The notes beneath the pieces are model-generated. The model saw only the letters and a list, made by a program, of their open reading frames with translations, did not search any database and was not told the DNA's origin. The position numbers and the translations under genes are program-made. From the NCBI GenBank assembly GCA_001789205.1, contig MFYT01000038.1, positions 1-55,006 on the forward strand: a DNA stretch of 55,006 bases. The letters are read 5' to 3'. Below are positions 6,842 through 30,075 of the stretch, in pieces. The first letter of the stretch is position 1. The number at the start of each line of letters is the position of its first letter. Source of the stretch: Candidatus Raymondbacteria bacterium RIFOXYA2_FULL_49_16. Lineage in GTDB: Bacteria > Fibrobacterota > OXYB2-FULL-49-7 > XYB2-FULL-49-35.

Positions 6842-8911
6842 TCATAGACATCCATATTCTGTTCGTGCGATAACATGATCTTGGTATGCCTTATCCAATT
6901 GGTAGAAGTAACCGCTCCACCCCCATACCCGAACAATCAGATCCTTATGTCTGTCCGGGAATTCCTGCGCTTCAAGCAAGGTTTCCTTATTTATGGCATT
7001 GAGTTGAAGCTGTTGGCCGCCGATATCCATGTAGAATCTAACCAGCTTTGCTATCTTGGTTATTGCCTCAGTGTTTCTGAATGCGCTCGTATGAAATTCA
7101 ATGGTCAATGGGCCTCCATTGATTATTTCTTTCATATTGGGTTTGGCAAAGGATTTCATGACCGATACCGGTCCCTTTGTCTTTATTCCAAGGGCTGGTG
7201 AAAAATTGGCCCCTAACGGTTCGCCTTTCTTTCTTCCATCCGGACCAGCGCCTAGTTCTGCCGCATGCCATATATAATACATCGCGGAGCCGGAACCCGC
7301 ACGGAAAATTCCATTCCTTTCGTTATGGCACTCCTTTAAAGCACTGCTAAACACCTTTAGAAGATTTACCGCTATTGAGTCGACACATTCATCGTCGTTA
7401 CCCATTTTTGGTGCCTCAAATTTGAGCAGATGGTATAATTGGTTATATCCCTCATAATTTTTTTCGAGAGCATTGATTAGTTCGGACTGCAAAATCGCTT
7501 TCTCGTCAAATACGTACTTCTTTATTGCCGCAAGTGAATCGGCCGCATTGGCAATGCCGGTACCATGTACGCCATAATTGTTATATTTAGCACCCAGTGA
7601 AATATCGCATCCTTTTTCCAGGCATCCCTTCATGAGAACTGAATAAAAGGGGGCTGGTTCGATGAGAATGTTTTTTACATTTTTCATAATCCTGCCGGCT
7701 TCTGCACATATTCCAGTCGATACAATGCTGAAAAGTTCATCAAAAGTACTGCATTTTTGTAGGTGTCCGATAACAGCTTCTTCCACTACTTTCATTAATG
7801 ACAGAGCGCCAATATTAGGAATGTCCATTCCAAAACCGGGAATAATGAATTCCCAGCATGCGGCAACGACATAATCACGAGCATCTTCCAGATCGTATCC
7901 TTTGGCAACAAGTCCCGGAACAACAATCTCATCATTCGAATATTGAGGGAATCCCAGACCAACAGAAGTCAGGTGGGTTCCAAGTTCAATAAGCGATTGT
8001 TCCGTCCGGGAATGGATCCGTAGGTTGATTTTCGGATCGATCAACTTGAGCTCAAGTGATGCTTCGAGGCACATGCTGGTCAATATATTTGCGGCATCAT
8101 TCCCGTTTTTGTCACACCCACCCAAGACAAGACTTTGGCCATTGTCGCCAAGCTGTTGGGAATGATACAAGTCTATGTCCTTATTCAACGCAATGAAGAA
8201 ATCTTCCAATAATTCAAACGCCTTCCCATAATTGAGCCGGCCAGCTTCCATATCGTTAATAAAATATGGCCACATATATTGATCAAACCGTCCTAAAGTG
8301 CAGTGATAATGACCTGCTATCCACATTGAAAAATGGATGATCCGCAACGCCTGCAATGCTTCCCTGAAGGTAGAGGCGCCATATTTCGGAACTTTTTCGA
8401 GCACTTCAACCAAATCGTTTCTTTTTTGCCGTTTAGCCTCCTTGGTATATTTTTCAGCAAACAAAATGACCGCATCTATGGTTTGGATGGAACACTCAAG
8501 GGATTCACAGCTTTGGATGTTTCCGGCAGCTTTCTGTTTTGCGAGGGTATCGAGTGCAATTTCCCGTTTCTTTAAAAGACCATCCTTAAGAACCGAATTA
8601 TAATCGGCTGAAATATTGCAGACCCGGCCCAGTTCATGAATAAAGTGACCAGCGCGGATTTCCTTCAATTCATCGGATAAATACACTTCAGGGATTTTAC
8701 TTATGGTTCTGGTTGCGGTGATATATTCGTCGGGAAGAATGATTGCCTTCTCCATATCCAGAAGGATACAAAGCCGCTGTGCAGTACGCTGCATATATGA
8801 TATATTAATGTTATTGAATTTGTCAGCAAGGCTAGGAACAAGAACTTGCCGGTAGGCATGATGCTTTTTTTGTTTTACATATTCAAATAATCTGCCGGTT
8901 CTTTTTGTCAT
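6842..8911 (-). CDS. Glycyl radical enzyme of unassigned substrate (PFL-like superfamily)
   Basis: 689 residues, shorter than PFL (about 760) or CutC-type eliminases (about 850). Superfamily landmarks are clear: LGRFDQYMWPYF (about 206-217), the thiyl-radical site VVAACWEF with Cys352 and Glu354 (C-x-E, as in dehydratase/lyase-type GREs), GPDGRKKGEPLGANFSP (about 556-572), GGQQLQLNAI (about 631-640) and the C-terminal glycyl loop RVWGWSGYF with Gly664 as the likely radical. C-x-E suggests an elimination-type reaction rather than the Cys-Cys chemistry of pyruvate formate-lyase. However, the ACWE context is unlike the usual GCVE, so the substrate is not assigned. Its start overlaps the activase stop (ATGA), so the two are translationally coupled. 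It is the last gene of a five-gene operon with a hydrolase and two secreted propellers, suggesting a sugar-derived substrate. Oxygen-sensitive, cytoplasmic. Confidence 0.88.
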   Translation of the reverse strand: MTKRTGRLFEYVKQKKHHAYRQVLVPSLADKFNNINISYMQRTAQRLCILLDMEKAIILPDEYITATRTISKIPEVYLSDELKEIRAGHFIHELGRVCNISADYNSVLKDGLLKKREIALDTLAKQKAAGNIQSCESLECSIQTIDAVILFAEKYTKEAKRQKRNDLVEVLEKVPKYGASTFREALQALRIIHFSMWIAGHYHCTLGRFDQYMWPYFINDMEAGRLNYGKAFELLEDFFIALNKDIDLYHSQQLGDNGQSLVLGGCDKNGNDAANILTSMCLEASLELKLIDPKINLRIHSRTEQSLIELGTHLTSVGLGFPQYSNDEIVVPGLVAKGYDLEDARDYVVAACWEFIIPGFGMDIPNIGALSLMKVVEEAVIGHLQKCSTFDELFSIVSTGICAEAGRIMKNVKNILIEPAPFYSVLMKGCLEKGCDISLGAKYNNYGVHGTGIANAADSLAAIKKYVFDEKAILQSELINALEKNYEGYNQLYHLLKFEAPKMGNDDECVDSIAVNLLKVFSSALKECHNERNGIFRAGSGSAMYYIWHAAELGAGPDGRKKGEPLGANFSPALGIKTKGPVSVMKSFAKPNMKEIINGGPLTIEFHTSAFRNTEAITKIAKLVRFYMDIGGQQLQLNAINKETLLEAQEFPDRHKDLIVRVWGWSGYFYQLDKAYQDHVIARTEYGCL

Positions 8912-9831
8912 AGAACTTGCGCCATTATATCGCAGCGGTGAAATACTTCCACATGTTCCAATGGGTCTTTTTTCTCATCAAAGCCCGGTTCATATTTCAT
9001 GTTAAGCGGTCTGTATTTCATTCCTGCAGTCCGATGATACGGCAGGAGTTCAACATGGCGTAAAGCTTTAAATCCCTTTAAGAGATACGCTATTTCCTGC
9101 ATGGTCTCTTTGCTATCGTTTACTCCTGGAATAAGAGGTATTCTTATGATAAGGTCTTTCTCCATTTCATTCAGCAGTGTAAGATTATGAAGTATTTCTA
9201 TGTTCGAGACACCTGTATGTACGCGATGCATGCCGGCATCGATATGTTTGACGTCAAATAGTACGAGATCTATGCGCCCGATAACTTTTCTAAAAATCTC
9301 TTCTTCGCAATATCCGCATGTCTCCAATACGGTATGGATGCCGTCAAGCTGGTCGAGGACTGCAAGAAGAAAGGCGGATTGCGCAAGCGGTTCACCACCC
9401 GAAAACGTGACCCCTCCCTTGCTTATTCGATAAAGATCGTTATTTCTCGTTATTTCACGAGACAATAACTCTGCCGATATCTCTCTCCCAACAATCTCTC
9501 GTGCTCCTGCAGGACAGACGCGTACACATTTTCCGCATGCAATACATGCGAAATTTGTACATGCTTTTCTGCATTCGCCGCATTGCATGCATTTTGACTC
9601 GGTAAAATAAATCTGCGGCGTAGAAAAGAGCCCTTCGGGGTTGTGGCACCATGTGCAGCGAAGGGGACATCCCTTGAAAAACACTGTTGTCCTGATCCCG
9701 GGCCCGTCATATAATGAAAATTCAACAATATCGAATATCATTCCAGTTGCTTCTTTGCCGGAAAGACCGGAGCCAAAAACATTATCTTCCGTCGTAGGAC
9801 AATGATTATACATGAATTTCGCATATTCCAT
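8908..9831 (-). CDS. Glycyl radical enzyme activating enzyme (radical SAM)
   Basis: 307 residues. The radical-SAM motif is Cys55-x3-Cys59-x2-Cys62 (GCPLRCTWCHNPEG), preceded by VEFSLYDGPGIRTTVFFKG, the classic activase opening. An inserted ferredoxin-like domain has two 4Fe-4S sets (C81/C84/C87/C91 and C96/C99/C102/C106), as in activases of eliminase-type GREs. VTFSGGEPL follows. It would use S-adenosylmethionine and reduced flavodoxin/ferredoxin to abstract hydrogen from Gly664 of the adjacent GRE. The annotated start overlaps the upstream hydrolase gene by 26 bp; Met31 (about 9741), just before the conserved core, is an alternative, though with a weak ribosome site. The gene overlaps the GRE start by 4 bp. 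Confidence 0.92.
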   Translation of the reverse strand: MEYAKFMYNHCPTTEDNVFGSGLSGKEATGMIFDIVEFSLYDGPGIRTTVFFKGCPLRCTWCHNPEGLFSTPQIYFTESKCMQCGECRKACTNFACIACGKCVRVCPAGAREIVGREISAELLSREITRNNDLYRISKGGVTFSGGEPLAQSAFLLAVLDQLDGIHTVLETCGYCEEEIFRKVIGRIDLVLFDVKHIDAGMHRVHTGVSNIEILHNLTLLNEMEKDLIIRIPLIPGVNDSKETMQEIAYLLKGFKALRHVELLPYHRTAGMKYRPLNMKYEPGFDEKKDPLEHVEVFHRCDIMAQVL

Positions 9832-19808: not shown

Positions 19809-21602
19809 TCAGGAATTCTCTTGTGGCAGACGCAGGACAAAGGCAACGCCTCCATCCATGCCGTCCTCGATACGGACAGCCCCTTTGAGCGTATTGGCAA
19901 TATGTTTGACAATGGCAAGGCCAAGACCCGTGCCACCGGTCTCCCTGCTCCTATGGCGGTCTACCCGGAAGAAACGTTCAAAGACCTTGTCCCGGTATTC
20001 ATACGCAATGCCCACGCCCGAGTCAATCACGCTGATCTCGCACAGAGATGCGCTGGTTGCGGAACGAATGATGATCCGGCCGCCTGGCGTATTGTATTTG
20101 ACCGCATTGCTGATGAGGTTATACAGAGCGATGTATGCCAGTTCAGGAACGCTTCTGATAGTGCAGGAACAATCAGCGGACACGATAAGCCCCTTTTCCT
20201 GAATATGCCCGGCAAGATCGTTAATGATTTCATCGACGCATTGCTTCAGATCCATGTTCTTATATATGATGTTCGCTTTGCCACTTTCGAGATATGAAAG
20301 TTGCAACAAGTCCGCGGTCAGGTTTTCCAAGCGGGAAACACTCTGTTTTATTTTCTGATGGCATTGACGCAGAAAAGCCGGGTCCGCGGACTCGTCCAGG
20401 GTTTCGACATATCCTTTGAGCACTGTGAGCGGGGTCCGCAGTTCGTGAGACGCGGCCTCAACAAATTCTGCCTTTGCCTGCACCAGCCGTTTCTCCTCGG
20501 TGATGTCCACAAAAGTAAGTAATACAACCCGTTCGCCTGATTTGAATTCCTGAAAGAGCGGCGTACACACTGTTTTTAAGTCACAGACACGCCCAGGACC
20601 CCTGAATGCCACAGTGCGCTCAATGCGGCGGCTCGCACCAAGCGATGCGGCCGCGATCTCCTGAAATTCCTGGGCATGGGTAAAACCGGCAAGCGATACT
20701 AAGGGAACAGAACCGGACGTGAATGTTGACCCGAAAAGGCGGCATGCGTTATCGTTGGCAAAAAGCAGGATGAACCGGCTGTCAACAGCCACCACACCTT
20801 CGGGGACCGAATCCAGCAAAGCCCTGAATTCCTCACGCTGGGCAACAAGGTCGCGGATAAGCGTCTGCAGCCGTACGGCTGTTTCATCGATAAAATCATA
20901 CAGCCGGTCTGTTTCAAGTGAAAAACCACGGTACCGCCACTGGCGGGGTCCCGCGCGTTCAATCCGCCTGGCGCTCTCGCCGATTTCGCGTATGACATTC
21001 TGGGCACTGTGAGAATAATAATAGACGGTAAACGCAATGACAAGAAAAGCCGCCATTGCCAGCAGTAACAGCGCGATTACCTGGCCATGCAGGTATGATT
21101 CAATGTTTTTAAGCGGTGTGGCAAACCGTAAATACCCGCATGTAACGCCCTCACGGACAATAGGGGCCGCGATATACAGCATCCGCATGCCTACGGTTTC
21201 GCTGAACCGGACGGCATGGCCATACCCATTGGCTGTGCCAGACCTTGCCAACCCTTGGATTTCGGGCCGGTTGCCGTGGTTTTCAACAGTGGCAATGGAC
21301 GCTGAATCGAGATATGAATCGCCCTGTACGGTGCCATGGGTATCAATAAAAGTTACACGCTGCTTCAGAGAAGCGCCAAGAACAGCGCAATATTCCTGGA
21401 GGGCGCACGCCTGGTCACGCTGATAGAGCGAGTCGGGCATGGTACGCGCGGCGAACAGAAGCGTCCTTCCTTCTTCCTCAATCAGACTGGCTTGGTAAAA
21501 TTGTTTGAGATTACGGAGAAACACCACTCCTGTTGCCGCGGCAATCACCAGAATGGCGACAAACACCGGCAGGCTTACCTTGAATTTCAGGGACTTGAAC
21601 AT
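19809..21602 (-). CDS. phoR: PhoR-type sensor histidine kinase
   Basis: 597 residues. TM1 lies at about 10-29, an extracytoplasmic domain of ~140 residues follows (FIDTHGTVQGDSYLDSASIATVENHGNRPE...), and TM2 is at about 175-196. Next come a short linker, a PAS domain (about 262-370: LLDSVPEGVVAVDSRFILLFANDNACRLF) and HisKA with the phosphorylated His386 in EAASHELRTPLT. The HATPase carries NLISNAVKYN (N box), DSGVGIAYEYRDKVFERF (G1/F) and GGTGLGLAIVKHI (G2). This is the PhoR/WalK layout. It is the last gene of the pst operon, directly after the second PstB. No PhoB-type response regulator gene is in the window, so its partner must be encoded elsewhere. Confidence 0.9.
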   Translation of the reverse strand: MFKSLKFKVSLPVFVAILVIAAATGVVFLRNLKQFYQASLIEEEGRTLLFAARTMPDSLYQRDQACALQEYCAVLGASLKQRVTFIDTHGTVQGDSYLDSASIATVENHGNRPEIQGLARSGTANGYGHAVRFSETVGMRMLYIAAPIVREGVTCGYLRFATPLKNIESYLHGQVIALLLLAMAAFLVIAFTVYYYSHSAQNVIREIGESARRIERAGPRQWRYRGFSLETDRLYDFIDETAVRLQTLIRDLVAQREEFRALLDSVPEGVVAVDSRFILLFANDNACRLFGSTFTSGSVPLVSLAGFTHAQEFQEIAAASLGASRRIERTVAFRGPGRVCDLKTVCTPLFQEFKSGERVVLLTFVDITEEKRLVQAKAEFVEAASHELRTPLTVLKGYVETLDESADPAFLRQCHQKIKQSVSRLENLTADLLQLSYLESGKANIIYKNMDLKQCVDEIINDLAGHIQEKGLIVSADCSCTIRSVPELAYIALYNLISNAVKYNTPGGRIIIRSATSASLCEISVIDSGVGIAYEYRDKVFERFFRVDRHRSRETGGTGLGLAIVKHIANTLKGAVRIEDGMDGGVAFVLRLPQENS

Positions 21603-21605
21603 ATA

Positions 21606-22391
21606 TTATCCGTACCGGCCCTCTATGTATTCGGCGGTCCGAGGGTCGCGCGGAGTTAAAAATAGGTCTTGGGTGCGGCCATGTTCAATCATTTCGCCTA
21701 AAAGCATAAACATGCATTCATCGCTGGCCCTACGCGCTTGCGCCATATTGTGCGTGACAATAATTATGGTATATCTGCCCCGAAGCGAAAACATGAGTTC
21801 CTCTATGGCGCGTGTTCCATCCACATCAAGTGAAGAGCAGGGTTCGTCCATGAGAATGATCTCGGGTTTGAGGGGCAGCAGGCGTGCAATGCACAGTTTT
21901 TGCTGCTGTTCAAGCTGGAGGGAGGTCGCCTTTGCGCCCAGACGGTCCTTGAGGTCGCTCCATAGTCCCACGTCGGTAAGCGCGGTCTCAACGGCCTGGT
22001 CGAGTTTTTCCTTTCCTAATTCGTGTGAGGGCAGGTGGAGGCGCATGCCCAGGACCACATTCTCGTACACCGAGAGCGGCAAGGGATTGGGCCGCTGGAA
22101 AACCATGCCCACGGACTTCCGCAGTTCGAGCAATGAGACATCGGGATCGTAGATATTTTTTCCCAGGATGATAATCTCTCCGGCAGTGCGCACATAGCTA
22201 AAACGTTCGTTGATGCGGTTGAAAGAGCGTAAAAGGGTTGTTTTACCGCAACCACTGGGCCCAATGAGCGCGGTAATGAGCCCCTGCTGGAAATTGGCGC
22301 TGACCTGCTTGAGGGCCTGAAACGATCCATACCAGAGATTTACATTCCTGGTTGCTATGCCCAAAGCGCCTGATCTGGTTTCTTCTGCCAT
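21606..22391 (-). CDS. pstB: PstB-like phosphate ABC ATPase with degenerate signature motif (PstB2)
   Basis: About 261 residues from the ATG at 22391 (AAGGG upstream); an earlier in-frame ATG at 22421 would overlap the other pstB by 17 bp. Walker A (GPSGCGKTT), Q-loop (GMVFQRPNPLP), Walker B (IILMDEPCSSLD) and switch His (IVTHNMAQARR) are canonical for PstB. The signature, normally LSGGQQQRLCIAR, reads LQLEQQQKLCIAR, so the Ser-Gly-Gly that contacts the ATP gamma-phosphate of the partner subunit is lost. It is adjacent to a second PstB with the complementary defects (22405-23169). This suggests an obligate PstB1-PstB2 heterodimer powering PstC-PstA. Confidence 0.9.
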   Translation of the reverse strand: MAEETRSGALGIATRNVNLWYGSFQALKQVSANFQQGLITALIGPSGCGKTTLLRSFNRINERFSYVRTAGEIIILGKNIYDPDVSLLELRKSVGMVFQRPNPLPLSVYENVVLGMRLHLPSHELGKEKLDQAVETALTDVGLWSDLKDRLGAKATSLQLEQQQKLCIARLLPLKPEIILMDEPCSSLDVDGTRAIEELMFSLRGRYTIIIVTHNMAQARRASDECMFMLLGEMIEHGRTQDLFLTPRDPRTAEYIEGRYG

Positions 22392-22404
22392 GGTGTGCTT
22401 GCCC

Positions 22405-23169
22405 TTATCCGAAGATACCATTCACATACTCATACGTTTCGCGCCGCGCGGGCATTTCGGAAAACATGACCTCAGTCCGGTCTATTTCAACAATGCCACC
22501 CTTCCAGAGAAACATGGTATGGTCGGCCAGCCGCCGCGCCTGCTGAGTAAGATTGGTGACCAGAATGATGGTGATCTCATGCTTTAGTTCCTTAAGCACA
22601 TCCTCGATACGCATGGTGGTGACCGGGTCGATGGCAATGGAGAATTCGTCGAGGCAAAGGATGTCGGGCTGGTGAGAGAGGGCGCGGGCAATGGTAAGGC
22701 GCTGCTGCTGGCCTCCGGAAAGCGCTGTGCCCAGACTGTTGAGCCGGTCTTTGACTTCGTACCACAAAGCGGCTTGTTTCAGGCATTTTTCAACCAGAGC
22801 GTCCAGTTCATCTTTTGCGTTGAGGCCTGAACAGCGCGGGGCAAAGGCGACGTTTTCGTATATGGAAAGGGGAAGACCCACGGGCAGGGGGGCCACCATG
22901 CCAATTTTCCGGCGCAAACCAAAAACATCCCTGGCTTTCAGCACATCATCGTTGTCGATGCACACAGAACCGGATACTGTCACGTTTGCAACAAAATCGA
23001 GCGTCCTATTTAAACAGCGCAGAATCGAGGTTTTTCCAGACTGGGCCGGGCCAATAATACTGAATATTTCGTTCCTTACAATGGAAAACGAAACCCCATG
23101 CACGGCCTCATGAGCGCCATACCTGATGCGAAGGTCCTTCACATCTATTATGGGTGTTTTTTCGGTCAT
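22405..23169 (-). CDS. pstB: PstB-like phosphate ABC ATPase with degenerate Q- and H-loops (PstB1)
   Basis: 254 residues. The signature LSGGQQQRLTIAR is intact and Walker A (GPAQSGKTS) still fits GxxxxGK[ST]. Where PstB normally has GMVFQKPNPFP this protein has GMVAPLPVGLP, losing the Q-loop glutamine. Where PstB has VTHN it has VTNL, losing the switch histidine. Walker B is ILCLDEFSIAIDP, with the Glu kept but the following Pro changed to Phe. Its own nucleotide site should therefore hydrolyse poorly, while its signature can complete the site of the neighbour at 21606-22391. It starts 1 bp after the pstA stop and the next pstB follows within ~15 bp. Confidence 0.9.
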   Translation of the reverse strand: MTEKTPIIDVKDLRIRYGAHEAVHGVSFSIVRNEIFSIIGPAQSGKTSILRCLNRTLDFVANVTVSGSVCIDNDDVLKARDVFGLRRKIGMVAPLPVGLPLSIYENVAFAPRCSGLNAKDELDALVEKCLKQAALWYEVKDRLNSLGTALSGGQQQRLTIARALSHQPDILCLDEFSIAIDPVTTMRIEDVLKELKHEITIILVTNLTQQARRLADHTMFLWKGGIVEIDRTEVMFSEMPARRETYEYVNGIFG

Positions 23170-23170
23170 G

Positions 23171-24076
23171 TTACCATTTTTTCTTGTTTCTAAGGTATAC
23201 GCGCAAGGTAATTGCAGATGCGTTTACCAGTAATACAGACCCCATGAGCACCACAGCCGTTGCATACGGTATTGATTCTTTGACATTGGGTACCTGCGTG
23301 GCAACAGTGTAGAGATGCATGGACAGGGCCATGACTTGGTCGGTCAGGCCATAGGGGAAAAAATCGCCCTGTTTGACCGCCTTATAAAAGACCGCACCAG
23401 TGAACATAATTGGCGCTGTCTCGCCCGCGGCCCTGCTTACCTGAAGGATGACGCCGGTAAGGATACCGCTGATGGAATTAGGCAAAACCACGGCCCTGAT
23501 GGTTTGCCAACGCGTGGCCCCAGTGTTCCAGCACGCTTCCCTAAAGGCCATGGGCACAGAGGCAAGGGCTTCGCGGGTGCTGGCGATAATGACCGGCAGG
23601 GTCATTATTGCCAGGGTAAGGGAGGCAGCGATAAGCGAGTATCCCAACTGGGCTGCGTAGACAAAGGCGCCAAGGCCAAAAAGCGCATGCACAATGCTGG
23701 GCACGCCAGCAAGATTGATGACCGCGAGATTGATGAGGCGGTTGAACCAGTTGTCACGCGCATATTCATTAAGATAGATAGCGGCCATGATGCCAATGGG
23801 CGCTGATATTGCCAGTGAAAGAACAACAAGGTTCAGTGTACCGATAAACGCGGGCCATATGCCGCCATCGCGCATGCCGCGCCGGGGCACCTCGACCAGA
23901 AACTCCCAGGAAAGAGAGGGAGAAGCGCGATACACAAGATAGGTAATGATGGCAAAAAGCGGTACAATCATTGCCAGGGCCATGGCCCTGAATACCCATT
24001 GGGCCGCACTCTGAGCGCGTTCCTTGCGGACCACGTGGCTGGTAACGCCGAATTTTACACCTGTGGTGATATGCAT
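23171..24076 (-). CDS. pstA: Phosphate ABC transporter permease PstA
   Basis: About 301 residues from the ATG at 24076 (MHITTGVKFGVTSHVV), 10 bp after the pstC stop. The longer in-frame reading starting at 24421 would overlap pstC by more than 300 bp and is rejected. Six membrane segments are visible. Family signatures include GGIWPAFIGTLNLVVLSLAISAPIGIMAAIYLNEYA and, in the cytoplasmic EAA loop, ALASVPMAFREACWNTGATRWQTIRAVVLPNSISGILTGVIL. It then ends with AAGETAPIMFTGAVF and LVNASAITLRVYLR. It forms the inner-membrane channel with PstC. Confidence 0.92.
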   Translation of the reverse strand: MHITTGVKFGVTSHVVRKERAQSAAQWVFRAMALAMIVPLFAIITYLVYRASPSLSWEFLVEVPRRGMRDGGIWPAFIGTLNLVVLSLAISAPIGIMAAIYLNEYARDNWFNRLINLAVINLAGVPSIVHALFGLGAFVYAAQLGYSLIAASLTLAIMTLPVIIASTREALASVPMAFREACWNTGATRWQTIRAVVLPNSISGILTGVILQVSRAAGETAPIMFTGAVFYKAVKQGDFFPYGLTDQVMALSMHLYTVATQVPNVKESIPYATAVVLMGSVLLVNASAITLRVYLRNKKKW

Positions 24077-24086
24077 AGCTAACCAA

Positions 24087-25022
24087 TCATTTCTTTTTAA
24101 AACCCCGGATGACAAAATCAGCCGTAATATTGACCGTAAAAGTAATAGCAAACAGCAGAACGCCGGTGAGAAAGAGCACGCGATAGTGGTCTGAACCCAC
24201 GGGCGCTTCACCCAATTCCGCGGCAACATTGGCCGTAAGGGTCCGCACGGAATCGAGAATACCGTGAGGTATCTGGACTGCATGTCCGGTGGCCATAAGC
24301 ACGGCCATGGTCTCTCCCACTGCACGACCAACGCCCAGCAACACTGCGGCCAGGAGTCCGTTTTTTGCCGCAGGCAAAAGCACGCGATAGACAAGCTGCC
24401 ATTTTGTGGCGCCCATGGCAATGCCCGCCTCGCGGAACGAATCCGGGACAGCCTTGAGCGCGTCCTCGCCTATGGAAACAATGATGGGTACACTCATGAG
24501 GGCCAGAATAATTCCGCCGTTCAGCAGATTGACGCCCACGGGCGCGCCCGTATAGGTGACTATCAGTTTGCTCATCATGGTAAGACCAATGAATCCCCAG
24601 ACAACACTGGGAATGGCCGCCAGAAGTTCAATGGTTATTTTCAATGCTTCCCTTGCGCGCGGACTGGAGAACTCGGAAATATAGATGGCGCCGCCAAGCC
24701 CAAAAGGGACGGCGATGACCATGGCCAGCGCGGTCACAGCGCAGGTGCCAAGCGTAAGGGCAAGGGTGCCGTAGCGGACATTGACGCTCGATGTAGGATA
24801 CCATTCGGCGCTGAAAAGAAACTGGGAAAGGGAAAACCGCTCGCTGAATAGCACCGGCAGCGCCTCGCGGAAAATGAAAAAGAAAATAGCAAGTACAAAC
24901 AAAATAGCGCTAATGCCGCTCAGACGGATCAGCCATTCCAGTGCTTTTTCCCCTCCTATGGCAAAAGGGGACCGCTGGTGACGCCGCTGGCATGCCGGAT
25001 GTGTTGAATCAGGTATGTTCAT
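24087..25022 (-). CDS. pstC: Phosphate ABC transporter permease PstC
   Basis: 311 residues with about six TM helices. Landmarks are the N-terminal IFFFIFREALPVL, then TLALTLGTCAVTALAMVIAVPFGLGGAIYISEFSSPRAREALK, AAIPSVVWGFIGL, and the EAA loop DALKAVPDSFREAGIAMGATKWQLVYRVLLPAAKNGLLAAVLLGVGRAVGETMAV. The GRAVGETMAV end is typical of PstC. It lies 12 bp after pstS and 10 bp before pstA in the same operon. Confidence 0.93.
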   Translation of the reverse strand: MNIPDSTHPACQRRHQRSPFAIGGEKALEWLIRLSGISAILFVLAIFFFIFREALPVLFSERFSLSQFLFSAEWYPTSSVNVRYGTLALTLGTCAVTALAMVIAVPFGLGGAIYISEFSSPRAREALKITIELLAAIPSVVWGFIGLTMMSKLIVTYTGAPVGVNLLNGGIILALMSVPIIVSIGEDALKAVPDSFREAGIAMGATKWQLVYRVLLPAAKNGLLAAVLLGVGRAVGETMAVLMATGHAVQIPHGILDSVRTLTANVAAELGEAPVGSDHYRVLFLTGVLLFAITFTVNITADFVIRGFKKK

Positions 25023-25034
25023 GGGTTATTATTG

Positions 25035-25943
25035 CTAGTCCAGGGGAACATACCCGCTTTCCTCAACAATAGCCTGGCCTTGAGCTGATAAAATCCAATC
25101 AAGGTATTTTTTTATAGCACCTTCGGGCGTGCCCAGCGTATACACCTGCAGGGACCGGGCTAGAGGATACGACTTGTTCTGTGTGTTGGCTACCGTAGGG
25201 GCTATTCCCGGTTCGCCGATTTTTAATTCAACCTTTAGCATTTTAACCTGATCATTGGCATATCCCATACCACTGTATCCGATGGCCGACCTTGTGGATC
25301 CCACCAGTTCTACCACTTCCTTTGAACCATTCATATCCCGTGAACCCAGTTTGAAATCCTTGTTCATGAGCACGTGTTCCCGGAAAAACTCATAGGTCCC
25401 TGAACTGGACTGACGGCTTACCCGGACTATTTCATCATTTTCCCCGCCAGGCAAAGAAATACCCAGCTGCGACCAGCGGGTTATATCGCCTTTTTCGGAA
25501 AAAATCATATCGAGCTGGTCTATGGAGATCATGTCCAGAGGATTGTCCTTATGAACATACACGGCCAACGCATCGAAGCCCACGATGAATTCCTCGGGCT
25601 TTTTTCCTGTGTTACGTTCCGCGCTTTCTATCTCCTCTTTCTTCATATTCCTGCTGGCACTCGCCATGTCAATGGTACCTTTGGACAGTGCAGCGATGCC
25701 AACACCTGATCCGCCGCCCGAAACCTCTACATCGACTGCAGTGTCAACCAGCGCATAGGCTTCGGCCCATGCCTGAGCAAGGTTGACCATGGTGTCGCTT
25801 CCCTTTATCTGGATAACCTGGCGTTCGACCTCGTCTTTTCCGGTCTTTTTCCCGCACTGGACAAATATGAGCATGGTTGAAATAGCGACAGCGAACGCTG
25901 TCTTGACATGGTCTTGGTTTGTCTTGGATGTACTAAAAATCAT
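25035..25943 (-). CDS. pstS: Phosphate-binding lipoprotein PstS
   Basis: 302 residues. The N-terminal hydrophobic stretch ends in IFVQC, a plausible lipobox (Cys30). The binding domain opens IQIKGSDTMVNLAQAWAEAY, then VEVSGGGSGVGIAAL and IDMASASRNMKKEE, the phosphate-binding loops. VGFDALAVYVHKDNPLDMISIDQLDMIFSEK, RQSSSGTYEFFREHVL and VGSTRSAIGYSGMGYA are standard PstS motifs. An AAGGAG precedes the ATG; the start abuts the phoU stop. It captures phosphate outside the cytoplasmic membrane for PstC-PstA. Confidence 0.94.
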   Translation of the reverse strand: MIFSTSKTNQDHVKTAFAVAISTMLIFVQCGKKTGKDEVERQVIQIKGSDTMVNLAQAWAEAYALVDTAVDVEVSGGGSGVGIAALSKGTIDMASASRNMKKEEIESAERNTGKKPEEFIVGFDALAVYVHKDNPLDMISIDQLDMIFSEKGDITRWSQLGISLPGGENDEIVRVSRQSSSGTYEFFREHVLMNKDFKLGSRDMNGSKEVVELVGSTRSAIGYSGMGYANDQVKMLKVELKIGEPGIAPTVANTQNKSYPLARSLQVYTLGTPEGAIKKYLDWILSAQGQAIVEESGYVPLD

Positions 25944-27065
25944 TTAAGACTCCTTCCTGGTTTCAGTCTTGATTTCTGAGCCGATAAGCGCCTGAACTAG
26001 CGCCTTTATATGGTTTTGGATGAACATGAATGTTTCCTCGTAGGCAGCCTGCACTGTTTCAGGAGTACCCTCTGTTTCCGAGGGGTCGCTGACCAGCCAT
26101 TCGAGGAAAACGGTCTTGCGCGGGCATTGGGGGAATATCTTGCGCGCCCCTTCAGAGAGGGCGACAACAACCTGGTAGTGTTCGATATGCGGTATCTGCT
26201 GAATGGACCTGGGAATGGTACGTGACAGGTCAAAGCCTTTTGTGTTCATGAATTCGATTGTGGCTTGCAGCATTGGCCTGGACTGGGCGCCAGCGCTGCT
26301 GAAAATGAATCTGGGCTGGTTGAGACCAATGGCAATAGCTTCAGCCATGGGCCCCCTGCAGGAATTGTGGTTATCTATGAAAAGGATGCGAAAGGCGCCG
26401 GTACCGGGATGTTTGGCATACTGGCCAGTACACATGTAGAGCGCTTCCATGCAAATATTCCGCGCCTGGTCCGAGACCCTCTCGAGCCGCCGGGTAATGA
26501 CCGCGAGGGGATCGAAAATGTCGTACGGCAGGTTGTTTGACTGAAGGAGCCGCGCCAATTCCCGGTTAATCCGGGTACGCAAGGCATCAACCTTGTCCTC
26601 GATCTCAATGGCCGACCACGCGCGTTCAGGATCAGGGTTTAAAAAGGCCTCTATTGAATCGTGAAACATGGCAATGGAAAGATTGGCCAGCTCTACAATG
26701 GCCTCTTCAACGCCCGAAGCGGTCTTTTCCTTCAATCTGATGACATAGCGCGCAATACTTTCGGCATAATCGCCGATCCGTTCGATCTCGAGATTGATTT
26801 TAATGGTGCTGTAGGCGAACCTGAGGCTTTGGGCAACCGGTTGCTGCCGAACGAGAAATTCGAGACAAAGCCGGTCTATCTCCTTCTCTTTCTCGTCCAC
26901 ATACAGGTCGCGTAAAATGACCGCATAGGCGAGTTCGTGGTCGTTTTCCACAAAGGCCTTAACGCAGTCATTCAGGGCACTTTCAGCCAGGGCCGCCATA
27001 CTGCCAACCTGGTCACGGATACGGTCGATCTCCCGCCGCATACTCTCTTCGTAATGAGTCTGCAT
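25944..27065 (-). CDS. phoU: PhoU fused to a nucleophile-less low-molecular-weight phosphatase/ArsC-like domain
   Basis: 373 residues. Residues 1-~215 are PhoU: two three-helix halves with metal-binding E/D-x-x-x-D motifs (EIERIGDYAESIARYV and RRLERVSDQARNICMEALYM). Residues ~228-360 are a low-molecular-weight protein tyrosine phosphatase/ArsC fold: FRILFIDNHNSCRGPMAEAIA, FIFSSAGAQSRPMLQATIEFM, and DPSETEGTPETVQAAYEETFMFI. In active enzymes the loop is V-C-x4-C-R-S. Here the nucleophilic Cys position is Asp (FIDNHNSCR), while the second Cys, the Arg and the general-acid Asp of the DP motif remain. The domain may therefore bind phosphate without hydrolysis. First gene of the pst operon, with a candidate Pho box upstream. 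PhoU normally conveys phosphate sufficiency to PhoR. Confidence 0.92.
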   Translation of the reverse strand: MQTHYEESMRREIDRIRDQVGSMAALAESALNDCVKAFVENDHELAYAVILRDLYVDEKEKEIDRLCLEFLVRQQPVAQSLRFAYSTIKINLEIERIGDYAESIARYVIRLKEKTASGVEEAIVELANLSIAMFHDSIEAFLNPDPERAWSAIEIEDKVDALRTRINRELARLLQSNNLPYDIFDPLAVITRRLERVSDQARNICMEALYMCTGQYAKHPGTGAFRILFIDNHNSCRGPMAEAIAIGLNQPRFIFSSAGAQSRPMLQATIEFMNTKGFDLSRTIPRSIQQIPHIEHYQVVVALSEGARKIFPQCPRKTVFLEWLVSDPSETEGTPETVQAAYEETFMFIQNHIKALVQALIGSEIKTETRKES

Positions 27066-27199: not shown

Positions 27200-27712
27200 T
27201 TACTGGCTGATTTTCTTACGGATCTGACTGACCAGCGAGCTGAATTTCGCAAGGTTGTCCTCGTTAAGTTCGATGAGGGTCTCGTGGGCAAGCAGGATGC
27301 TCTGCCGGAGAAACATCCCGCCCGATTCTGGTGAGGCCATGATTTCCTCGGTCGCCCCTGCCTTCGATACTTCTCCCGGGCTGGCAAGCACAGGATCGAG
27401 AATAAACTGGCAGTTGTTGGTATCAAGAATATTCTGTATCATGGAGTTTGCGTACAGCACAATGGCTTTTTTCTTGCCATTCTTTTTGTAGTATTTGACC
27501 GCAAGATTGGCGATGATGCCGATCATAGTGCTGTCGACATGGACGCACTCGGTAAGGTCAAAAATGAGCTGGGGCGCGTTCAGGTGCTGCTCAGCGTGCT
27601 GGTCCTCGTATTTTTTCAAGTTCGCGGCCTCGGCAAAGGTGGCGTGGCCGGTGATTTTAATGACCGCACCGGATTCGATGACCCCTGCGAATATGTGCGC
27701 GCGTTTTTCCAT
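27200..27712 (-). CDS. STAS-domain protein (anti-sigma-factor antagonist type)
   Basis: 170 residues. An N-terminal STAS-like fold (about 1-110) shows GAVIKITGHATFAEAANLKKY, APQLIFDLTECVHVDSTMIGIIANLAVKYYKKNGKKKAIVLYA, and SMIQNILDTNNCQFIL. The VDST-x-IG loop corresponds to the MDSSGLG phospho-serine site of SpoIIAA-type proteins, so regulation by phosphorylation at this loop is plausible. The last ~55 residues are helical and unassigned. No partner anti-sigma kinase or PP2C phosphatase is adjacent. It lies between the acetate-kinase-like gene and the pst operon on the same strand, outside the pst transcript as judged from the Pho box. Confidence 0.78.
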   Translation of the reverse strand: MEKRAHIFAGVIESGAVIKITGHATFAEAANLKKYEDQHAEQHLNAPQLIFDLTECVHVDSTMIGIIANLAVKYYKKNGKKKAIVLYANSMIQNILDTNNCQFILDPVLASPGEVSKAGATEEIMASPESGGMFLRQSILLAHETLIELNEDNLAKFSSLVSQIRKKISQ

Positions 27713-27770: not shown

Positions 27771-28859
27771 TCAGGCACGTTTCAACAATTCGACTGTAGC
27801 CTCCCCCATGATTCGCTGTTTTGTCCTGAAATTCAGACAGGCTTTGATTCGGGAAGTATCGCCATGAACAAACACCGCGCGGTCCCCTGCTTTTTTCCAC
27901 GGCAAGCGTCGCAGATAGAGGCCCATAAAGGATAGTTTCTTCAGCACCTTGAACACGAGCGGCTGAAGGTCGGAAACATATCTGCCCGAAAAAACGATCC
28001 CATCAAGACTCCCTAAAAGAGCCATCCCCTCTCCCGTATGCTGGAGTATCTGATTAAAATACAGGTTAAAGGCCTCGGTAACCTTCCGGTCTTTGCCATT
28101 GAGTTGATAGAGTTCATTGATATCCGCCCTGCGTCCGGTCATTCCAAAAAAACCGCTCTCGTTTTTCAAAATATCATCAATCCGATACATACTCAAATTA
28201 TGGGCCTTCATCAGATAAAAAACCGCCCCGGGATCCAGATCACCGCACGTTGTTTTTCCCATGATCCCCTCAAGCGGAGTATATCCCATGCTAATATACC
28301 TTGGCGTCATGTTCTTTATCGCGCACACGGTTGTTTGCCTGTCTAAAACAATTGACAGCACTTGCGATGTTTCCGGAAACAGGGCGCTGCTATCTTCGTG
28401 CAGCAACCCATGATATCCCCACCGTTTGATTCGGTTAGCCTCGCTGTATTCATAGGGTATCGCGTAATACCGTTCCTCGTCCGGAAGCGATTTAAAAAAG
28501 GCCGTCTCGGAAAACATAAACATTGGAATCGGGCCAACCTGGGTCAGACAAAAAGAAAAGAGAGCGCGCGTATGATTCATATAGAGCGGGAAGAGAGGCG
28601 CCAACCGCGCCAACGAATCGATGGCCCTGCGAGTGATCCGTACGGGTTTGGGGAACAAGTCCCCTCCCGAAACCAGGCAGAAAGCGAACGCGGTGACTGT
28701 CTCGCGCTCTCCGCACATAGTGCGAATGAAAGGCATAAGGTCTGTTTCCAGGAAATCACCGGTGTTCATGGTCGCCACTTTTTTGACTGAAGGCGCTCCG
28801 GCGGCCCTGTGCGTCCATAGCGTTACCTCTCGAATGGAGTGTTCAATTATTATGACCAT
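27771..28859 (-). CDS. Acetate kinase-like protein lacking active-site residues
   Basis: About 362 residues from the ATG at 28859 (MVIIIEHSIREVTLW); the frame is open further upstream, inside ackA, but shows no homology there. Homology to AckA is clear in RIKRWGYHGLLHEDSS (GFHGxSHxY motif), ISMGYTPLEGIMGKTTCGDLDPGAVFYL and LLGSLDGIVFSGRYVSDL. Key residues are missing. The N-terminal NCGSSSLK is replaced by EHSIREVT, HRxVHGG by CLVSGGD, the FDT segment by FSET, the TRSGD arginine by TTCGD, and the C-terminal E-E-x-x-I-A motif is gone. Only the GYHG histidine remains. It overlaps the intact ackA by 17 bp and is probably co-translated. A pseudoenzyme binding or regulating acetate kinase is the most likely role; this is inferred. 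Confidence 0.8.
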   Translation of the reverse strand: MVIIIEHSIREVTLWTHRAAGAPSVKKVATMNTGDFLETDLMPFIRTMCGERETVTAFAFCLVSGGDLFPKPVRITRRAIDSLARLAPLFPLYMNHTRALFSFCLTQVGPIPMFMFSETAFFKSLPDEERYYAIPYEYSEANRIKRWGYHGLLHEDSSALFPETSQVLSIVLDRQTTVCAIKNMTPRYISMGYTPLEGIMGKTTCGDLDPGAVFYLMKAHNLSMYRIDDILKNESGFFGMTGRRADINELYQLNGKDRKVTEAFNLYFNQILQHTGEGMALLGSLDGIVFSGRYVSDLQPLVFKVLKKLSFMGLYLRRLPWKKAGDRAVFVHGDTSRIKACLNFRTKQRIMGEATVELLKRA

Positions 28860-30075
28860 ATGAATGCTCCTTATACGCCTGCCGCGCAATGACAATCTCT
28901 TCGTCCGTGGGAATGACCAGCGTGCGCGTTTCCGCTTTTGAATGAGAGATATCGGCCATGCCGGACCGGTAGCCGTGGTTTTTTTCCGCGTCGATGCGAA
29001 TGCCGAACATCTGCAGATTTTTGCAGACTTCCTCGCGCACCAGAGACAAACCCGTACCAATGGAATCCGTAAAAATCAGGACGTCCGGCTTTTCAAGAAG
29101 CAACGAATAATAGCCGATATATTTTTTGACCCTATTAACATAAAGACTAAAGGCGAGACGCGCCCGCGGATCGGAAACGCTGCTGGCAATAACGTCCCGC
29201 ATGTCGGATGACGCGGCATACACACCGACAATGCCGCTTTTTCTATTCAGGATCGTCTCAATGTCGTCCGCGGAACAATTCTCCTTGAACATCAGGTAAA
29301 ATACCATGCCCACATCAACATCTCCGGACCGCGTATTCATGACCAAACCTTCAAGAGGCGTGAAGCCCATGGAATTATTCACCGAACGGCCGTTACTGAT
29401 GGCGCAAATACTCGATCCTCCGGTACCCAGATGACAGCTGATGATCCGCTGGGTACGCACCTCCCGCTTGAGAAAACCGCACGATGCATGCATCACGTAT
29501 TCATGCGACAACCCATGAAATCCGATCTTATGTATGCCGAATTTCCTGGAAAAAACACGCGGTAGCGCGTATAATGAGTGCTCTTTCGGGATTGTGGCAT
29601 GGAAAGAGGTGTCAAAGACCGCAACTTGGGGAATAGCAGGGTATTCTTTCGCGCACAGTTCAACAAGACTGAACGAGATGGGGTTGTGTAGCGGCGCCAG
29701 GGGCAAGGTCTGGCGTAATTGCTTGAGGGTATGAGCGTTGATACGTGTTGTTTTAGTAAACAACGTACCTGGGTGCACATACCTGTGGGCAAAAAGAGAA
29801 CATGCGATTTCCGGATCATTGGCTGAATCGCCGGCGATTATCTCCATAATACGCCTGAACGCGGCCGCATGGTCTCCCCTGGCCAAGGGCAGCGTTACCG
29901 TGCTCCCCAGAACGGTATGATGGATGGCAGGATCTTCCTTTGTCTTGATCCCAACACGCTCGGCCTCGCCGGCAACCAGTACGCATTCCTCTGGCATTCG
30001 TACAATTTTATACTTTAACGAAGAACTGCCGCAGTTGAGGACCATTACATTCACAGACCCAGGTTCAGATTTCAT
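28843..30075 (-). CDS. ackA: Acetate kinase
   Basis: About 410 residues from the ATG at 30075 (MKSEPGSVNVMVLNCGSSSLKYKIV); a longer reading to 30228 lies inside the upstream gene and is rejected. Active-site elements are present: NCGSSSLK, AHRYVHPG (Arg kept), VAVFDTSFHATIP, KIGFHGLSHEYV, NNSMGFTPLEGLVMNTRSGDVD (Arg kept) and VIPTDEEIVIARQ (Glu kept). It interconverts acetyl phosphate + ADP and acetate + ATP, the usual fermentative ATP step. No phosphotransacetylase gene is nearby. It overlaps the M20-like gene by 11 bp upstream and the degenerate AckA-like gene downstream, so the three form one operon. Confidence 0.93.
   Translation of the reverse strand: MKSEPGSVNVMVLNCGSSSLKYKIVRMPEECVLVAGEAERVGIKTKEDPAIHHTVLGSTVTLPLARGDHAAAFRRIMEIIAGDSANDPEIACSLFAHRYVHPGTLFTKTTRINAHTLKQLRQTLPLAPLHNPISFSLVELCAKEYPAIPQVAVFDTSFHATIPKEHSLYALPRVFSRKFGIHKIGFHGLSHEYVMHASCGFLKREVRTQRIISCHLGTGGSSICAISNGRSVNNSMGFTPLEGLVMNTRSGDVDVGMVFYLMFKENCSADDIETILNRKSGIVGVYAASSDMRDVIASSVSDPRARLAFSLYVNRVKKYIGYYSLLLEKPDVLIFTDSIGTGLSLVREEVCKNLQMFGIRIDAEKNHGYRSGMADISHSKAETRTLVIPTDEEIVIARQAYKEHSYGHNN

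Follow-up and report, generated by a model that had tools for sequence, protein, structure and literature searches.

A conserved fusion of PhoU to a phosphatase-fold domain without its catalytic cysteine, encoded with an asymmetric pair of Pst ATPases

How PhoU passes the state of the Pst phosphate transporter to the sensor kinase PhoR is a long-standing open question. In Escherichia coli, PhoU contacts both PstB and PhoR (PMC4423584). A 2026 survey published in mBio tied clades of PhoU to families of transporters, with PhoU proteins that carry extra domains excluded by design (PMC13170248). Enterococcus faecalis, a member of the Firmicutes, has tandem pstB1 and pstB2 genes whose products play non-overlapping roles (PMC12096839). 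In eukaryotes, the PRL phosphatases use their P-loop to control CNNM transporters in a non-catalytic manner, and PRL engineered to carry Asp for Cys keeps the tight binding of an Asp pseudo-substrate (PMC12192612).

The gene described here, phoU*, resides in a 55,006-nucleotide contig (MFYT01000038.1, hereafter the window) of Candidatus Raymondbacteria bacterium RIFOXYA2_FULL_49_16, a member of the Fibrobacterota, the phylum that also includes the named MAGs of Chitinivibrionales, Chitinispirillaceae and Fibrobacter. It occupies positions 25944–27065 of the minus strand, is preceded by a ribosome-binding-site-like AAAGAGG and encodes a 373-residue protein made from two parts. The N-terminal part (residues 1–220; 26406–27065, minus strand) consists of two PhoU repeats (PF01895 twice, E 1.7e-38) and scores 156.9 bits against TIGR02135 (PhoU), above the equivalog cutoff of 130.25. 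Both repeats carry the E/DxxxD metal motif, as E95xxxD99 and E195xxxD199. The C-terminal part (residues 225–361; 25983–26393, minus strand) is a domain of the low-molecular-weight phosphatase (LMWPTP)/ArsC fold, in which Pfam finds LMWPc at residues 227–356 (E 5.7e-10, above the gathering score); the score against TIGR02691, 46.6 bits, is far under the cutoff of 174.3. An AlphaFold model made with 27 orthologs as input contains both folds (mean pLDDT 88), with an uncertain placement of the two domains relative to each other (pTM 0.59). Foldseek matches this predicted model to the PhoU structures 1t72 and 4q25 and to ArsC (1jl3, TM 0.86 by target length); the predicted ArsC fold also matches 8p5n.

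The P-loop of the domain reads F-I-D231-N-H-N-S-C236-R237-G, which is the CX5R motif with Asp in place of Cys. Alignments put Asp231 (codon 26373–26375, minus strand) at the position of the catalytic Cys, while Asn234, Cys236, the P-loop Arg237 (26355–26357, minus strand) and the general-acid motif Asp327-Pro328 (26082–26087, minus strand) are all retained. The two further redox Cys positions of ArsC are not Cys. The initial annotation of this DNA had proposed both the two-part architecture of the reading frame and the loss of the nucleophile with Arg, second Cys and DP kept, and both are borne out by the minus-strand reading frame, the Pfam matches, the model and the alignments. It is thus confirmed that phoU* joins PhoU to an LMWPTP/ArsC fold without the nucleophilic Cys. 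Chance or sequencing error is excluded, since the architecture and the Asp recur in 42 of 51 orthologs.

Besides the window's own copy, relatives contain ten full or near-full fusions, with 48–59% identity. When the genomes of 84,980 species were scanned, 26 fusion loci emerged, spread over Fibrobacterota, Acidobacteriota, Verrucomicrobiota, Lentisphaerota and Desulfobacterota, and others came from searches of 395 Desulfobacterota, 289 Verrucomicrobiota and 297 Acidobacteriota genomes, for about 50 orthologous fusions in these five phyla. Several of the loci are contigs of metagenome-assembled genomes, for which individual organism names may reflect mis-binning. Viral contigs contained no relative, and plasmids gave only plain PhoU-like matches. 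The open-access literature yielded no description of a PhoU fusion with a phosphatase or with an arsenate reductase domain, which is weak evidence of novelty.

The dead-type fusions of the window's lineage are here called class II, with 51 members in the active-site counts. In their PhoU part, E95 and D99 are present in 51/51, E195 in 44/51 and D199 in 49/51. The initial annotation had suggested surveying the nucleophile position in such fusions; in class II it is Asp in 42, Ser in six, and Gly, Cys and Glu in one each. The remainder of the active site is more variable. Arg237 is Arg in 30/51 and lost in 21/51 (41%), Cys236 is Cys in 33/49, and D327 is Asp in 32/50 and lost in 18/50. Asp231 is found with the Arg in 24 fusions and without it in 18, and Asp, Arg and the general acid occur together in 17/51. 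Fusions without the Arg include some from the window's own phylum (L035 and L036 in genome G075; L040 in G059). On the tree, D231 needs six changes, R237 13 and D327 12, and 17 of the 134 columns of the domain need fewer than D231. The loop residues Asn234 and A241-E242 rank with the best conserved, Trp323 is invariant across phyla, and an ArsC fold is still predicted for a class II member that has lost both the Arg and the DP motif.

The dN/dS of the domain, 0.05–0.37, is similar to or slightly above that of the PhoU part and indicates that the domain is under purifying selection. A dead active site kept by selection is the mark of a pseudophosphatase, and this is the pattern that the sequences display. 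The Asp is common to several phyla, and a sample of stand-alone LMWPTP/ArsC proteins, drawn from the window's and other genomes, keeps the Cys throughout (16/16), so phoU* is not a locally decayed copy. Local decay of the window's gene was rejected as an explanation, given the shared Asp and the purifying selection.

Fusions with an intact active site do exist. The class I fusions (L082, L083, L084 and L100, from Acidobacteriota and Verrucomicrobiota) have Cys, Arg, Ser and DP intact. Their genes close pst operons of the ordinary type at the 3′ end, and these operons encode a single canonical PstB and a further PhoU. When the C-terminal domains are placed on a tree, class I groups with stand-alone ArsC, whereas class II forms one clade (99/98); in the PhoU tree, class II is likewise one clade (100/100), except for L147, a truncated copy of L041. 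Given these positions, separate origins are most likely for the dead and the intact fusions. Separate PhoU–ArsC fusions whose catalytic residues are intact were also noted at L111, L112, L113 and L122, where they end classic pst operons on the 3′ side and adjoin a second PhoU.

The sole Cys at the nucleophile position within class II belongs to L049 (8001–9098), which is nested among Asp sequences. In its small Desulfobacterota group, the codons are TGC for the Cys of L049, AGT for the Ser of L045, GGA for the Gly of L047 and GAC for the Asp of L171. A path from Asp through Gly to Cys or Ser is the simpler one, since L049, L047 and L045 sit within the Asp clade and their close relative L171 has Asp. 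The Cys of L049 thus appears to have replaced an earlier Asp, and an ancestral Cys retained in Desulfobacterota was rejected on the same grounds. The initial annotation had held that homologous fusions with the Cys and phosphatase activity would make the window's copy simply decayed. Intact-Cys fusions were indeed found; however, their lineage is a separate one, located in pst operons of the ordinary type, and with the L049 Cys looking secondary, decay does not follow.

The phoU* gene is the first of an operon on the minus strand with small gaps or overlaps between genes, in the order phoU*-pstS-pstC-pstA-pstB_b-pstB_a, with phoR next in the window. pstS (25035–25943) encodes a lipoprotein-like phosphate-binding protein, and pstC (24087–25022) and pstA (23171–24076) encode the permeases; all three products score above the cutoffs of their families (TIGR02136, TIGR02138 and TIGR00974, respectively). 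Directly behind pstB_a is a phoR-like gene for a sensor kinase with PAS and HisKA domains (19809–21602). No E. coli-type Pho box was found near phoU*, and the window as a whole has no more matches to it than chance would give. Upstream of phoU*, by 134 bases, a gene at 27200–27712 encodes a STAS-like protein with a weak match to the anti-sigma-antagonist RssC (36.7 bits, cutoff 250); a single-sequence scan found no counterpart of it beside other fusions.

The two ATPases of this operon are unusual. PstB_b (22405–23169, minus strand) keeps LSGGQ but has Asn for the H-loop His (VTN, 22552–22560) and Pro for the Q-loop Gln (22888–22890). PstB_a (21606–22421, minus strand) keeps Walker A and B, the Q-loop and the H-loop but has LQLEQ in place of LSGGQ (21906–21920). 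Neither protein has the canonical set of LSGGQ, Q-loop Gln and H-loop His, and both fall below the TIGR00972 cutoff of 343.2 bits, with 314.8 for PstB_a and 267.9 for PstB_b. Judging from these motifs, an ABC dimer of the two would have one consensus site, made from the nucleotide side of PstB_a and the signature of PstB_b, and one degenerate site. The open-access literature yielded no description of such asymmetric Pst ATPases, which again is weak evidence.

The asymmetric pair is present in 32/32 class II operons in which both ATPases could be read, and one more, readable for PstB_b alone, agrees, so that all 33 readable operons of dead fusions are of the asymmetric type. The PstB_a signature in these operons varies (LQLEQ, LSLEE, LSLEK, LQLDQ), and that of PstB_b is LSGGQ, or ISGGQ in one. 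By contrast, canonical PstBs are found beside the class I fusions (4/4), and the genomes with class II operons also have canonical PstBs in their second pst loci, as on contig C51 in the case of the window's genome. In seven operons (L220–L223, L225, L229 and L230), the asymmetric pair is accompanied by a plain PhoU or by none. The fusion thus comes with the asymmetric pair, and not the reverse; mutual dependence of the two was considered and dropped because of these operons, which also imply that the domain is not needed for the asymmetric ATPase pair in general. In orthologous operons across phyla, PstC, PstA and the PstBs are mostly 62–81% identical to those of the window, and Desulfobacterota sequences are nested among those of Fibrobacterota, which suggests that the operon has passed between phyla by horizontal transfer.

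At about an even chance of being right, the explanation that we favor is that the C-terminal domain is a non-catalytic interaction domain on a PhoU serving the asymmetric Pst system. The phoU* product would be the dedicated PhoU of that system, and its N-terminal part probably does the usual job of PhoU, contacting the PstB ATPases and PhoR. The C-terminal pseudophosphatase, with an ArsC/LMWPTP fold but without the residue needed for a phosphocysteine intermediate, would not catalyze and may instead offer a surface for binding or scaffolding, through which the seating of PhoU on PhoR or on the two PstB ATPases is adjusted. Such a surface is favored by the contacts of PhoU with PstB and PhoR in E. 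coli and by the precedent of PRL and CNNM. The retention of Asp across phyla, while other active-site residues vary, and the constant linkage to the asymmetric transporter indicate that the domain is a kept part and not a decayed enzyme. More tentatively, the locus may represent a phosphate system of a distinct kind, transferred between phyla as an operon. Its Pst importer would have one ATP site of the consensus type and one that is degenerate, and would be under a PhoU whose built-in pseudophosphatase senses the state of nucleotide or phosphate and thereby gates both uptake and PhoR.

The initial annotation had pictured the domain as a phosphate-binding, non-hydrolyzing pocket. In this unlikely reading, Asp231 replaces the thiolate, the binding of phosphate or a phosphoprotein without hydrolysis falls to Arg237 and the amides of the loop, and occupancy is relayed to PhoR. 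The operon and its PhoR are consistent with it, as are the Arg237, Asn234 and DP of the window's copy, the orthologs that combine Asp, Arg and general acid, and the pseudo-substrate binding that survives the Cys-to-Asp change in PRL (PMC12192612). The idea that Asp must repel phosphate was dropped in view of those PRL data, by analogy with which the Asp and Arg of the window's copy could still hold an anion or a carboxylate. Residual anion binding is thus possible for this copy, and so is the phosphate-sensor version. As a common function, however, phosphate sensing is unlikely, because it should keep the anion-clamping Arg that 41% of orthologs have lost, 18 of them with the Asp in place and the three same-phylum relatives included. 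What stands of the earlier proposal is a nucleophile-less phosphatase fold on PhoU, kept by selection, in a pst operon with phoR; shared phosphate binding is weakened by the loss of the Arg (21/51) and the general acid (18/50).

The persistence of Asp without Arg, together with the conserved Asn234 and A241-E242, would fit a structural role, in which Asp locks the P-loop into one conformation and the domain only stabilizes or oligomerizes PhoU. On its own, such a lock leaves the strict linkage to the asymmetric PstB pair without explanation, and we consider it equally doubtful, if not slightly more so. A once-active ArsC/LMWPTP that lost its nucleophile and is now drifting would account for the wide variation of Arg, second Cys and general acid and for the Ser, Gly and Glu at the nucleophile position. 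It is made highly improbable by the prevalence of Asp over random residues (42/51), by purifying selection, by the fold and Trp323 kept across phyla, and by the trees, in which the intact-Cys fusions are not ancestors. The least probable alternative has Asp231 as a new nucleophile or phospho-acceptor in the style of HAD phosphatases or receivers, making the domain chemically active. The place of the Asp, at the end of strand 1, is reminiscent of those pockets, and residue 232 is acidic in at least 26/51. However, the +2 Asp of HAD enzymes is missing (position 233 is Asp in 4/51), the 27 members scanned with Pfam match LMWPc but neither a HAD nor a receiver (Response_reg) profile, and the fold match is to ArsC. 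The interaction domain remains our preferred explanation.

Pseudophosphatases have been described mostly in eukaryotes, and phoU* adds a bacterial case. Its separable parts, an intact ATP site, a degenerate one and an extra PhoU domain, allow the coupling between transport and signaling to be tested. The PhoU clade to which it belongs goes together with a particular subtype of transporter and is of a kind left out of the 2026 survey by design (PMC13170248). Elsewhere in the window, an acetate-kinase-like gene (27771–28781) that lacks the N-terminal part and apparently the arginine of TRSGD (TTCGD) adjoins a full-length acetate kinase gene (~28843–30066) and is possibly a degenerate paralog. 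At 6842–9831, inspection by eye suggests a glycyl-radical-enzyme-like protein and, adjoining it, a protein that resembles a radical-SAM activase and carries a motif of the CxxxCxxC type.

Among known systems, PhoU of the TIGR02135 type resembles phoU* in its two repeats, its ExxxD motifs and its association with pstSCAB and phoR, but phoU* has the additional ArsC-fold domain, lies at the 5′ end of its operon and belongs to a separate PhoU clade. Thioredoxin-type ArsC and LMWPTP share with the domain the predicted fold (1jl3, 8p5n), the position of the P-loop and the DP motif, and differ in having the nucleophilic Cys and, in ArsC, Cys at the two further redox positions. Class I fusions have the same order of domains in a pst operon, but with intact catalytic residues, a 3′ location, one symmetric PstB and a second PhoU. 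PRL (PTP4A)–CNNM offers a precedent for mechanism only: a PTP-type P-loop domain that binds instead of catalyzing and controls a transporter. The PTP family and the transporter are unrelated to those described here, the system is eukaryotic, and its Cys-to-Asp change was engineered. The tandem pstB1 and pstB2 of E. faecalis are adjacent, as in the window, but both products keep LSGGQ and the H-loop (PMC12096839), whereas PstB_a and PstB_b each lack complementary motifs. PhoU clades tied to transporters, paired canonical PstBs and pseudophosphatases are thus all known separately; the phoU* fusion is a real and conserved variant that brings such elements together, with a function that we infer from its sequence and setting.
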